From Rubritalea profundi (lineage in GTDB: Bacteria > Verrucomicrobiota > Verrucomicrobiia > Verrucomicrobiales > Akkermansiaceae): a DNA stretch of 58,497 nt. Under the pieces are notes generated by a model. It was not told where the DNA came from and ran no database searches. It was given only the letters and a program-made list of their open reading frames with translations. Where the stretch lies: positions 110,964-169,460 of the forward strand of contig NZ_MQWA01000001.1 of assembly GCF_002954445.1 (NCBI RefSeq), in the 5' to 3' direction. Below are positions 5,836 to 39,142 of this stretch, piece after piece. Every line of letters starts with the position of its first letter. Position 1 is the first letter of the stretch. The position numbers and the translations under genes are program-made.

Positions 5836-8800
5836 ATGCTTAAATGGATTCTCCAAAAAATCGTCGGTAACAAAAATCAGCGCGAGATAAAGCGCATGAA
5901 CCCAGTCGTTGCCAAAATCAACGAAATCGAGGAGGCGCTTCAGAATGAATCTGAAGCTGCTGTTCTAGCCAAAGTCACTGCGTGGCAACACCACCTTCAC
6001 CGCTATTTGCCACTTGGAGCTCCGACCAAACGCACCATCGAAGCAATGGACAGCGGAACGCTTTCCCAGTTTGCTGAAACCCTAGAAACCCGCTTCAGTG
6101 ACCTGCGTAGCGAGTACCCATCACTACCAAAAGTAGAAGCGTCCCCAGAATCTATCGAAGCGGCTAAAGCTGCTTTTATTGAGATCGAGGACGAATTTCC
6201 AGCGAAGCGCGATCTCTACCTCAAGCAAATCCTTCCTGAAGCTTATGCCGTGGTAAAAAATGGAGCGCGCCGCATTTGTGGCCGCAGCATCCCACTCGGT
6301 GGAAGTGAAATCAAATGGAACATGGTGCACTTCGACGTGCAGCTCGTCGGTGGTATAGCTCTCCACAATGGCATGATTGCCGAGATGCAAACCGGTGAAG
6401 GTAAAACTCTCGTTGGTACTCTTCCAGTTTTCCTCAATGCCCTCACCGGCCTTGGTGTGCACGTCGTCACAGTCAACGACTACCTCGCTCAGCGTGACTC
6501 CGAATGGATGGGTGCACTTTACAGCTACCTCGGACTCAGCATCGGTTGTATCCAGAACCAACAGCCACCACAACTGCGTGCGGCCCAATACCAATGTGAC
6601 ATCACCTACGGAACAAACTCCGAGTTCGGATTCGATTACCTCCGCGACAACGGCATGTCTTCCTCAAAAGAAGAGCAGGTCCAACACGGCCACTTCTTCG
6701 CGATCATTGACGAAGTTGACTCAATCTTGATTGATGAAGCGCGTACGCCACTCATCATTTCTGGCCCATCTACTGTTTCAAACACTGAGCAGTACGGCTT
6801 ATTCAAGGGGAATATTCAAGCTCTAGTTAAGCAGCAAAACCTCCTCTGTAACGAACTCGCCGAAGAAGTTAAAAAATCTCTCGCAGCGGATGACGAAGAA
6901 ACTGCCGGCCGCGCACTCTTTAAAATCAAACTTGGCCAGCCACGCAGCAAACAACTTGCTCGCTACATGCAGGATCCAGACGCTCGCCGTCTGATCGAGA
7001 AGACAGAGCTCTCAATGTACCAAGACGCGCAGAAGAAAGATCTCTACGCAATCAAAGAAGAGCTCTTCTACACCATCGATGAGAAAGGCCACGATGCTGA
7101 TCTCATGGATAAAGGACGTATCTTCCTCGACCCTAACGACTCGGACTCTTTCGTTCTCCCAGACCTCGCTGAAGAATACGCTGACATTGACGCTCAAGAC
7201 GAACTCACAGCCGAAGAAAAGGCGGAGCACAAAGACGTTCTTCAGACTCGCCTCGACAGCCAAGGCCAGAAGATGCACTCCATCTCGCAGCTCCTCAAAG
7301 CATTTTGTATCTACGAGAAAGACGTCGAATATGTGATCGAAGAGAACAAGATCGTGATCGTCGACGAGCAGACTGGCCGTAAGATGGCTGGACGCCGTTG
7401 GTCCGATGGTCTCCACCAAGCGATCGAAGCAAAAGAAGGTGTGACGGTGGAACGTGAGACGCAGACTTACGCGACTATCACTATCCAGAATTACTTCCGC
7501 CTCTACGAGAAGCTCGCTGGCATGACTGGTACAGCTGAAACTGAAGCTGCAGAATTCCACGATATTTACCGTCTCGACGTTCTCCCTATCCCAACCAACC
7601 GTCCTAACACACGTATTGACGACAACGACCAGGTCTTCAAGACCCGCCGTGAGAAGTACAATGCGGTGGTCAAAAGGATTGCTGATTCCCAAGAACGCGG
7701 TCAGCCAGTCCTCGTTGGTACAGCATCTGTCGACGCCTCAGAAACTCTTTCACGCCTCCTCAAACGCGCTAAGATCCCACATAAAGTTCTCAACGCTAAA
7801 TTCCACGAACAAGAAGCCGAAATCATTGCCAACGCTGGCCAAAAAGGAGCAGTCACAGTCTCCACTAACATGGCTGGCCGAGGCACTGATATCAAACTCG
7901 CTGATGGTGTGGAAGCTCTCGGCGGCCTCTTTGTCATCGGTTGTGAGCGCTACCCATCACGCCGAGTAGACCGCCAGCTACGTGGCCGATGCGCCCGTCA
8001 GGGTGACTCAGGTCTCAGCCAGTTCTACATCTCCTTTGAAGACGACCTTATGCGTAACTTTGCCGCAGCCGACCGCATGACTACCATGATGGAACGATTC
8101 GGTATGGAAGAAGGTGAAGCACTAGAGCACAAGTGGCTCAACCGCTCCATCGAGACTGCTCAAAAGCGTGTCGAACAACGCGACTACCAATGGCGTAAGC
8201 GCGTCCTCGATTTCGACGATGTGATGAACATGCAGCGCGAAGTAGTCTACGGCTACCGCAACGAAGTCCTCTCCTCCGAAGACCCACGCGAGCTTCTCAA
8301 CGAAGTGATCGACGACATGATTCCTGCTACCGTCCACGAATACATGGACCAGCGCGACGCAGGAGCTCCTGACTACGCTGAGCTCCTCGGCTGGATCAAT
8401 ACCACCTTCCCACTCTCTCTCAGTATGGAAGAAAGTGGCATTCAAAACCGCTCGGCTGATGACAATGCCGAATGGCTCATCGCTGAAGTCAAGAAGTCCT
8501 ACGAACTTAAAGTAGCAGACCAACCTGCAGAGTACCTCGATCATCTCGAGCGTCAGATCATCCTCACTGCGATCGACCGACTTTGGCAGGAGCACCTCTA
8601 TAACATGGACGCGCTCCGTGAGGGTGTGCACCTCCGCGCTCAAGGCCAGAAAGACCCGCTCGTGGAATACAAAAACGAGGCATACGCTTTGTTTGAGACA
8701 CTGATGGATTCGATCAAAGGTGATGCACTCAGCAACCTGTTCCGCTCTACTGCGAGCCTCGACCAGTTCGAGCAGCTCCTGCAAAGCATGCCACAGGAAC

Positions 8801-8985
8801 TCGATGGACCAGAACAGCCACAGATCACTAACACCAACATGGCCCAGGCGATCACCTCTCAAGAAGTAGCACTAAAGCCACTCAAAAGCGGTAAGCCAGT
8901 CAAAATCGAGTTTCCAAAGCGCAAGCCAATCCAACTTAAGAACACCAAGAACACCAAGAACACCAAGAACGCCAAGAAGAGCTAA
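5836..8985 (+). CDS. secA: Preprotein translocase ATPase SecA
   Basis: The motor that pushes unfolded preproteins through SecYEG. At 1049 residues it is longer than E. coli SecA (901). Walker A is [11 protein letters not shown] (about 184-194), and Walker B/DEAD is [17 protein letters not shown] (about 292-307). The preprotein cross-linking insert and helicase domain 2 ([25 protein letters not shown]) follow. The extra length comes from insertions between residues 320 and 450. The C-terminal zinc-finger/SecB-binding motif is missing; instead the protein ends in a lysine-rich NTK tail made by a 9-bp DNA repeat. The upstream region contains an AT hairpin but no Shine-Dalgarno. Confidence 0.97.
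8941..8976 (+). repeat. 9-bp tandem repeat inside secA 3' end
   Basis: Three exact copies of AACACCAAG and a fourth with one change (AACGCCAAG), encoding N-T-K repeats at the SecA C-terminus. The period is a multiple of three, so copy-number change would not shift the frame. Confidence 0.9.
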
Positions 8986-37950: not shown

Positions 37951-38091
37951 AAATTCGCGGCTAACATAGGAACCCAATTTTCAGCCGTCAACCTCTTAAG
38001 TCCGCCCCGCGAAATGAGTATAAAAAAAGTGAACAAAAAGGCCCACATCATTGATGTGAACCTGAAATCTTAACTAAGGTCTATCTGACTG

Positions 38092-38805
38092 CTATTGAGC
38101 GACTTCCTTAGCTTTAGCAAAAGATGCTTGAGAGCCCTTCGCTAATACTTTTCCGTCTTTGTCGACAAAACAGTAAAATGGAACATACCGCTCCGTTTTA
38201 AACTTTGCTAAATCAGCCTTGGCTATGCTTTGCTTCATGACATGTAACCATGGAAAGTTTTCTTTTTTGGCCCACGCAAGAGCAGATTCCTCATTACTAT
38301 CAAGGCTAACGTGAATGAATTCGACATTTTCATTACCTGCTATTTCTTTGTTGAATTTGGCCACTAACTGTGGCGCAGCTTTACGACAAGGTGGTCACCA
38401 ACTCGCAGAATAATAGAGTAAGTAATATTCCGGAACTTTCTCAATCTGAGCCTTCTTGAAGCGCTTACCGTCAAGCCGCACAAGAGTTTTCTCATTCAGC
38501 TTAGACCCCACTGTTTGAGCTGCCAATTGTTCCTCCACCGTAGGAGCATTTGCAGCAGCCTCTTTAGCGGCAACCTCTTCAACTTTTACATTCACCCAGT
38601 CGCGATCCGATGGTGAAAGCACATCCATCGAAAACTTGAGTTTCTTATACTTTCGTAGAACCGTGACTTCTTTGGTCTCTTGGTCGAAGGATTTATACTC
38701 ACCCTCAAATGTCTTTAAGCCGTCAACACTCGTCCAAGTCCTTGCTTGAGCTGGAAGCCCTAACAATGATAAAGCCAGTACTATTTTATAACTTTTTGAA
38801 AACAT
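38092..38805 (-). CDS. SHD1-thioredoxin protein with TGA at the redox Cys: candidate selenoprotein
   Basis: One frame of 237 codons, broken only by TGA at 38395-38397 (codon 137). The N-terminus is a signal peptide (cleavage near AQA-RT). Residues 22-70 match an SHD1 domain (RTWTSVDGLKTFEGEY, then LSPSDRDWV). The C-terminal part is a thioredoxin of the nucleoredoxin/TlpA kind: LLYYSASW-(TGA)-PPCRKAAPQLV, FIHVSLDSNEESALAWAKK, YVPFYCFVDKDGKVL. The expected motif is SASWCPPC, so the TGA stands exactly at the N-terminal, attacking Cys. That is the position where selenocysteine occurs in known selenoproteins (UxxC). A SECIS-like hairpin follows. Read as a stop, the product is 136 residues without any redox centre. 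A Cys-to-stop mutation is the alternative. Confidence 0.6.
38360..38374 (-). promoter_or_regulatory. Possible bacterial SECIS hairpin
   Basis: On the coding (minus) strand, 20 nt after the TGA, GCCAC pairs perfectly with GUGGC around the loop AGUUA. The loop begins 25 nt after TGA and has G at its second place followed by U, as the general bacterial SECIS rules ask (loop 16-37 nt away, G within the first two loop bases). It lies in coding sequence. A 5-bp stem can arise by chance. Confidence 0.35.
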
Positions 38806-38956: not shown

Positions 38957-39033
38957 TGGCGGAGCGGACGGGAATCGAACCCGCAACCTCCGCCGTGACA
39001 GGGCGGTGCTCTAACCAATTGAGCTACCGCTCC
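38957..39033 (-). tRNA. tRNA-Asp (GTC), copy nearer the terminator
   Basis: 77 bases on the minus strand with the CCA end encoded. Acceptor GGAGCGG/CCGCTCC, anticodon stem CCGCC/GGCGG around loop CTGTCAC (anticodon GTC), T-arm GCGGG/TTCGATT/CCCGT. It is identical over its whole length to the copy at 39066-39142. Confidence 0.95.
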
Positions 39034-39065: not shown

Positions 39066-39142
39066 TGGCGGAGCGGACGGGAATCGAACCCGCAACCTCC
39101 GCCGTGACAGGGCGGTGCTCTAACCAATTGAGCTACCGCTCC
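39066..39142 (-). tRNA. tRNA-Asp (GTC), promoter-proximal copy
   Basis: Identical in sequence to the tRNA at 38957-39033, 32 bases upstream of it. The two are probably cut from one transcript. Anticodon loop CTGTCAC gives GTC; CCA is encoded. Confidence 0.95.

Follow-up and report, generated by a model that had tools for sequence, protein, structure and literature searches.

Does a TGA codon at the active site of a thioredoxin-like protein of Rubritalea profundi end the protein, or is it read as selenocysteine (Sec)? The question is raised by a locus in a stretch of 58,497 nucleotides, which is referred to here as the window. A preliminary description had noted a frame of 237 codons broken by TGA alone, at the position of the attacking cysteine. 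Translation confirmed this and placed the frame on the minus strand, which had been left unstated: positions 38805..38092 encode 237 residues with one internal TGA at residue 137 and a terminal TAG. The codon lies in the context YYLLYYSASW-U-PPCRKAAPQLV, and the following features can be assigned to the gene and its predicted product:

38092..38805, minus strand: candidate selenoprotein gene for an exported SHD1-like/thioredoxin protein, 237 residues with Sec137 and the TAG stop at 38094-38092 (translation and model)
38395..38397, minus strand: in-frame TGA, putatively read as selenocysteine U137 (SASW-U-PPC), in the same column as the TGA or Cys codon of homologues
38386..38388, minus strand: codon for the putative resolving Cys140 of the UxxC motif (translation and alignment)
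38743..38805, minus strand: probable signal peptide, residues 1-21 (MFSKSYKIVLALSLLGLPAQA), read by eye
38590..38742, minus strand: SHD1-like beta-rich N-terminal domain, about residues 22-72 (modelled strands and SHD1 matches in the family)
38146..38508, minus strand: thioredoxin-fold domain, about residues 100-220 (Pfam, AlphaFold2 and Foldseek)

Nine TGAs in the window, counted on both strands, have 60 or more open codons on either side, and only that at 38395-38397 belongs to a thioredoxin motif; another one (7014, minus strand) reads UELC by chance, its frame being antisense to a 1049-aa ORF (5836-8985). Amino acid identity to four homologues is 0.44-0.49 before and 0.44-0.55 after the TGA, and in both halves of the gene divergence from these homologues is greatest at third codon positions. 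Judged from these sequence comparisons, the stretch 3' of the TGA behaves as coding.

The thioredoxin fold had been described as well preserved after the TGA, and this assessment holds. Thioredoxin_8 (PF13905) is the best Pfam match of the protein (52.4 bits against a cut-off of 27), and PF00578, PF08534 and PF00085 are likewise over their cut-offs. An AlphaFold2 model, for which 15 aligned members were used and U was entered as C, has a mean pLDDT of 91.3 and a pTM of 0.71, with low confidence for residues 1-20. The N-terminal strands of the model comprise residues 22-26, 32-41, 46-51 and 54-59, linker helices join this beta-rich domain to the thioredoxin domain, and a helix of residues 138-154 directly follows U137, thereby placing the redox pair at the helix start. 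The best match of the model in the PDB is a tryparedoxin (Foldseek, E 6.4e-8), and the top ranks are held by tryparedoxins, other thioredoxin-fold proteins, ResA and StoA (9fov, 1qk8, 1st9 and 3erw), with 14-33% identity in the thioredoxin domain and TM-scores by query length of 0.33-0.45 among the 50 rows listed; such scores would be expected if the match is limited to the thioredoxin domain. Tryparedoxin, ResA and StoA are Cys proteins and are not known to carry SHD1. The SHD1 label that had been given to the N-terminal domain turned out to be indirect: SHD1 (PF03983) has no match in the protein encoded in the window even at E up to 1, but it is found in nine of the 22 family members that were aligned (best E 5.2e-6), with whose N-termini that of the window protein aligns.

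Homologues carry either TGA or a Cys codon at the motif position. Among 50 distinct sites, including the window gene and its paralogue, 38 have TGA and 12 have Cys, a count that is conditional on the site-finding motif, which admits U or C only. The sample was drawn from the loci L021-L050 and L067-L085; a second ORF in L077, which lacks the motif, was dropped, and L033 (without differences from L030 in the 210 nt used) as well as L069, L072 and L076 (repeats of L028, L040 and L031) were counted once. All 15 full-length members of the TGA form, among them the window gene, have the TGA at the same alignment column, as they were chosen to, and keep W-U-x-P-C and both halves together. A protein search of 58 related genomes gave a match at E up to 0.001 in 52 of them, in some cases to the N-terminal domain alone. 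The TGA form, for which any homologue with TGA was taken, is found in 27 of the 58 genomes and selB over its cut-off in 30: both occur in 24 genomes, TGA only in three, selB only in six and neither in 25. The TGA form thus tracks selB (Fisher P 7.6e-8, uncorrected for relatedness). The three genomes with TGA and no selB over the cut-off are G001 (58% complete), G003 (82%, a partial piece) and G007 (93%), which has a 59.8-bit selC.

The TGA is followed by a hairpin that resembles a bacterial selenocysteine insertion sequence (SECIS):

38360..38374, minus strand: SECIS-like hairpin with five pairs (GCCAC/GUGGC) and the loop AGUUA (comparative pairing and RNAalifold)

If the U of UGA is counted as position 1, positions 23-28 pair with positions 34-39 in the family and positions 29-33 form the loop; the AGUUR loop starts 25 nt after the UGA, and the sixth pair of the family (23/39) is C-C in the window hairpin. 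In PMC1088965, the bacterial SECIS is described as a stem-loop just 3' of the UGA with a small apical loop containing a G; with its hairpin 3' of the UGA and its loop AGUUA, the window gene shows this feature. Across the 38 TGA-form sequences, 91.7% of 228 pair cells are formed, and both sides change in all six pairs (22 cells compared to 4.2 in shuffles). None of 500 shuffles, which do not keep relatedness, attains any of five hairpin measures; sliding the hairpin by 1-3 columns leaves at most 59.2% of the pair cells, and RNAalifold proposes the identical six pairs. As the hairpin region is coding, a null that preserves the encoded protein was used as well, in which 1000 synonymous redraws yielded on average 54.2% and at most 63.6% of the pair cells. 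Measured against this null, all six pairs are formed in 24 of the 38 TGA forms (0.5 expected), and the Leu codon of the loop starts with UU in 37 of them (8.2 expected, null maximum 18); the loop G is invariant in all 38. The Cys forms have 45.8% of the pair cells, a little more than in the null computed for them (36.2%, P 0.022), and a Leu codon starting with UU in 1 of 12. An exact scan of public contigs with the 39-base pattern of the hairpin found 68 sites at 67 loci, at which the inner pairs are fixed by the pattern and the outer three are formed in 60, 60 and 44 cases; the results of slid controls at these sites are mixed, with the middle pair forming in 61-62 at shifts of -2, -1 and +1 and the third in 68 at -1 and 53 at +2. 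Folded as a single sequence, the window hairpin is little better than shuffles (z -1.08; z -0.26 for 100 nt). Since this signal is not significant, support for the hairpin is comparative only, and the weight of the case for a candidate SECIS lies in the covariation among the 38 sequences.

The genome of R. profundi (4.17 Mb in four contigs, 95.8% complete) also encodes the genes for selenocysteine synthesis and insertion, for which the preliminary description had proposed a search: selA, selC and selD are present, but selB carries one single-base frameshift. The single selA match (E 9.7e-149) has no internal stop. The selC match reaches 49.6 bits (cut-off 47) and is called tRNA-SeC with the anticodon tca by ARAGORN; it ranks among the weaker of the over-cut-off matches, which are found in 38 of the 58 genomes and some of which are short (about 84-86 nt) and probably represent other tRNAs. 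The searches with RF01852 and selB also give matches in every one of the 14 control genomes when E up to 0.001 is allowed; other tRNAs and elongation factors presumably account for them. Over the cut-offs, RF01852 matches five and selB two of these genomes. The selD match (E 1.3e-112) has one internal TGA (C1:4054761-4055690; L018:1531), followed by a hairpin with the loop GGUCU. This selD is a TGA-containing selenoprotein gene itself, and its GGUCU loop, which is that of the formate dehydrogenase SECIS in E. coli, is unlike the AGUUR loop of the thioredoxins. A second TGA-containing thioredoxin paralogue is encoded elsewhere in the genome (L074:1480-2004; C1 about 338779-339303); it has 175 aa and the same type of hairpin, and an SHD1-like N-terminus was not seen in it by eye. 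The strict hairpin pattern occurs at two sites of the genome, in the window gene and at C1:338998.

The selB match (E 2.0e-79, over the cut-off) is split into a 394-aa ORF and a 309-aa ORF in a different frame (L009:1495-3401; C1 about 1020794-1022700). A tblastn search with the SelB proteins of 16 relatives places the break at about L009:2562, and an alignment of the DNA shows that one base is missing compared to four relatives of the same genus. This frameshift is the main doubt on the selenoprotein reading; if it is real in the organism, selenocysteine insertion would be disabled there. The lineage would then still make the selenoprotein, and R. profundi would recently have lost the trait, with UGA acting as a stop codon and the window gene being a fresh pseudogene. 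The deletion lies outside any homopolymer, which speaks for a true loss; the two halves of selB, however, retain 75.7% and 57.1% identity to the Rubritalea marina protein, and selA, selC, selD, the window gene and the second TGA paralogue (near C1:338851) look intact. A lone indel can also be an assembly error, and a recent loss is considered unlikely.

With this reservation, the candidate status that had been given to the gene is supported by the Sec genes, the 38 TGA sites and the covarying hairpin. The gene very probably encodes a selenoprotein, most likely an exported UxxC thiol-disulfide oxidoreductase, into which selenocysteine would be inserted at codon 137 via SelB and the hairpin. On sequence and predicted structure, this reading is strongly supported by the replacement of Cys by TGA, the conservation, the covarying hairpin, the Sec genes and the predicted fold.

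When a TGA stays open in many genomes, recoding is another possible cause, that is, read-through or reassignment of UGA to Trp, Gly or Cys without selenium. UGA had been described as an ordinary stop codon elsewhere in this DNA, and indeed it ends 2 of the 30 window ORFs of at least 250 aa (TAG 15, TAA 13) as well as some family members in relatives, and global reassignment was rejected for this reason. The alternation of the residue with Cys at the catalytic site, the association of TGA with selB and the position of the hairpin, which is that of a bacterial SECIS, likewise make reassignment very improbable. Equally little is to be said for two separate proteins, an SHD1-only product that stops at the UGA and a thioredoxin half that restarts downstream. 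The ORF listing does contain separate ORFs at 38395..38805 (136 aa) and 38092..38364 (90 aa, GTG start), but the restart GTG sits after the UxxC motif and would yield a product without an active site; moreover, motif and both halves are conserved together in the 15 full-length TGA-form members, and shorter paralogues without SHD1 carry the TGA, too. TGA is one base away from the Cys codons TGC and TGT, but it is hardly credible that an ordinary thioredoxin gene acquired it through a nonsense mutation or an error in base calling. This explanation was rejected: the TGA recurs in 27 of the 58 related genomes and in cultured strains, which a single sequencing error does not explain, the sequence 3' of it is under coding constraint, and the covarying hairpin is tied to the TGA. 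The caveat that other genes of this DNA carry TAA, TAG or frameshift breaks was not confirmed: no Pfam family is split in ten ORFs chosen as possible broken neighbours, four of which have no Pfam family at all.

According to the selenoprotein reading, SelD and SelA would supply Sec-tRNA(Sec), the product of selC, and SelB would bind the AGUUR-loop hairpin and deliver selenocysteine at codon 137. The N-terminal signal would then export the selenoprotein, and outside the cytoplasm the thioredoxin domain may act as a UxxC thiol-disulfide oxidoreductase, in which Sec137 would attack a disulfide or an oxidised substrate and Cys140 would resolve the mixed selenenylsulfide. Most proteins with the nearest folds are thiol-disulfide oxidoreductases, and reduction of envelope disulfides is proposed. 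For the SHD1-like domain, a probable role is the docking of the enzyme to a partner or the envelope.

The preliminary description had considered the architecture to be possibly new, and this stands in part. Sec-containing thioredoxin, Prx-like, Redoxin and TlpA-like oxidoreductases use the same replacement of the attacking Cys of CxxC by Sec (PMC13188914), and the UxxC entries in Table 1 of that paper are PF00085, PF00578, PF08534 and cd02966. The window protein differs from these families in its exported SHD1-like N-terminal domain and in having Thioredoxin_8 as its best Pfam match; neither SHD1 nor Thioredoxin_8/PF13905 has an entry among the 119 prokaryotic selenoprotein families of that table (2026). 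In a broad reading, the thioredoxin domain could be filed under the UxxC entries. UxxC thioredoxin-fold selenoproteins are thus already well known at the domain level, and the exported variant with an SHD1-like domain appears to be the new part. Cys-containing SHD1-thioredoxins of the same order (L036, L045, L046 and L047) share the two-domain layout and have CxxC at the same column; they differ in the Cys codon and, as judged from the 12 Cys forms, in the low proportion of hairpin pairs (45.8%) and of Leu codons starting with UU (1/12). The NCBIfam model seleno_TsoB (NF045694) matches 3 of 15 members weakly (best E 5.8e-4); it is named for a rhodanese/DsbD fusion-like selenoprotein, and the window protein is unmatched at E up to 0.01. 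In the open-licence literature, no paper was found that combines selenoproteome and SHD1. Open-licence titles and the beginnings of abstracts yielded nothing on SHD1-thioredoxin selenoproteins under Rubritalea, Roseibacillus, Akkermansiaceae or Verrucomicrobia/Verrucomicrobiota, and the name of the phylum was not found in the main text of the selenoproteome papers searched (PMC9312934, PMC5029168, PMC12013277, PMC1088965 and PMC2398784 among them).

The titles of the 67 loci found with the hairpin pattern name Verrucomicrobiota or a subgroup in 65 cases, a plain Bacterium in one and Planctomycetota in one. An HMM built from the family alignment A2 detects the SHD1-like N-terminus at 48 of the 68 sites; among the other 20, which include the Planctomycetota site, some are cut by contig ends, some are truly shorter and several look lipoprotein-like by eye. 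Cultured species with the TGA form are Rubritalea marina, Roseibacillus persicicus, Roseibacillus ishigakijimensis and Persicirhabdus sediminis. Of 387 genomes drawn from the phylum, 115 give a match when E is limited to 1e-15, and among the matches listed seven TGA rows come from R. profundi (G000), G021, Roseibacillus persicicus (G033) and G024, one more comes from G269 and the rest are without TGA. The match in G269, another genus of the same family (G269:C1:8918-9241), was not counted, as the open frame of the stretch has no W(C/U)xxC.

In a tree built from 37 Sec rows and 36 Cys rows, the Sec/Cys label needs 5 changes compared to 24.8 in shuffles. A sister pair from two genomes of one family, L039 (Sec) and L036 (Cys), is supported with 100/98 and shows Sec/Cys interchange; the genome with the Cys form of this pair (G051) has selB and selC over the cut-offs nonetheless. 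The Cys forms of genus g3 may or may not nest inside the Sec clade: with 33 Sec rows constrained to stay together, the tree gains 6.38 log units over that of the free search (p-AU 0.64). In this genus of the same family, CACAG(C/T)GTGGA follows the Cys codon in L160-L163, L165, L168, L169 and L171; it is perhaps the remnant of a hairpin after loss of Sec, although the sequence is ambiguous.

It is tempting to speculate that the Verrucomicrobiales own a large superfamily of selenoproteins, and the chances for and against this are about even. It would consist of exported thioredoxins, some of them lipoprotein-like and many with SHD1, would be present in several copies in some genomes, would use one compact SECIS of five or six pairs with an AGUUR loop, might account for much of the demand for Sec and would have interchanged Sec and Cys more than once. 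For the Verrucomicrobiota, a well-supported subfamily of exported selenoproteins is added. Gene callers that treat UGA as a stop codon would presumably cut these proteins short of a complete active site, and the strict hairpin provides a 39-base search pattern with which the family can be retrieved from raw genomes. Furthermore, the occurrence of the family in cultured strains makes bench testing possible.

Among nine loci, those of eight relatives and the window, no neighbour is common to at least three when ORFs of at least 110 codons are compared, and a conserved operon context was not found. In the window, the gene is followed by a possible terminator:

38039..38063, minus strand: terminator-like hairpin with a U-run just past the downstream TAG (consensus match only)

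The assignment of 38063-38039 as a putative terminator is weak, because the scan found four such sites compared to 1.3 expected, one of them on the minus strand inside the selenoprotein gene. Immediately upstream of the gene, two tRNA-Asp (gtc) genes lie in tandem on the minus strand (38957-39033 and 39066-39142). In Roseibacillus persicicus, a TGA-form SHD1-thioredoxin gene (L068:1380-2099) is divergently oriented to and about 200 bases away from the gene for tRNA-Sec (2299-2392).
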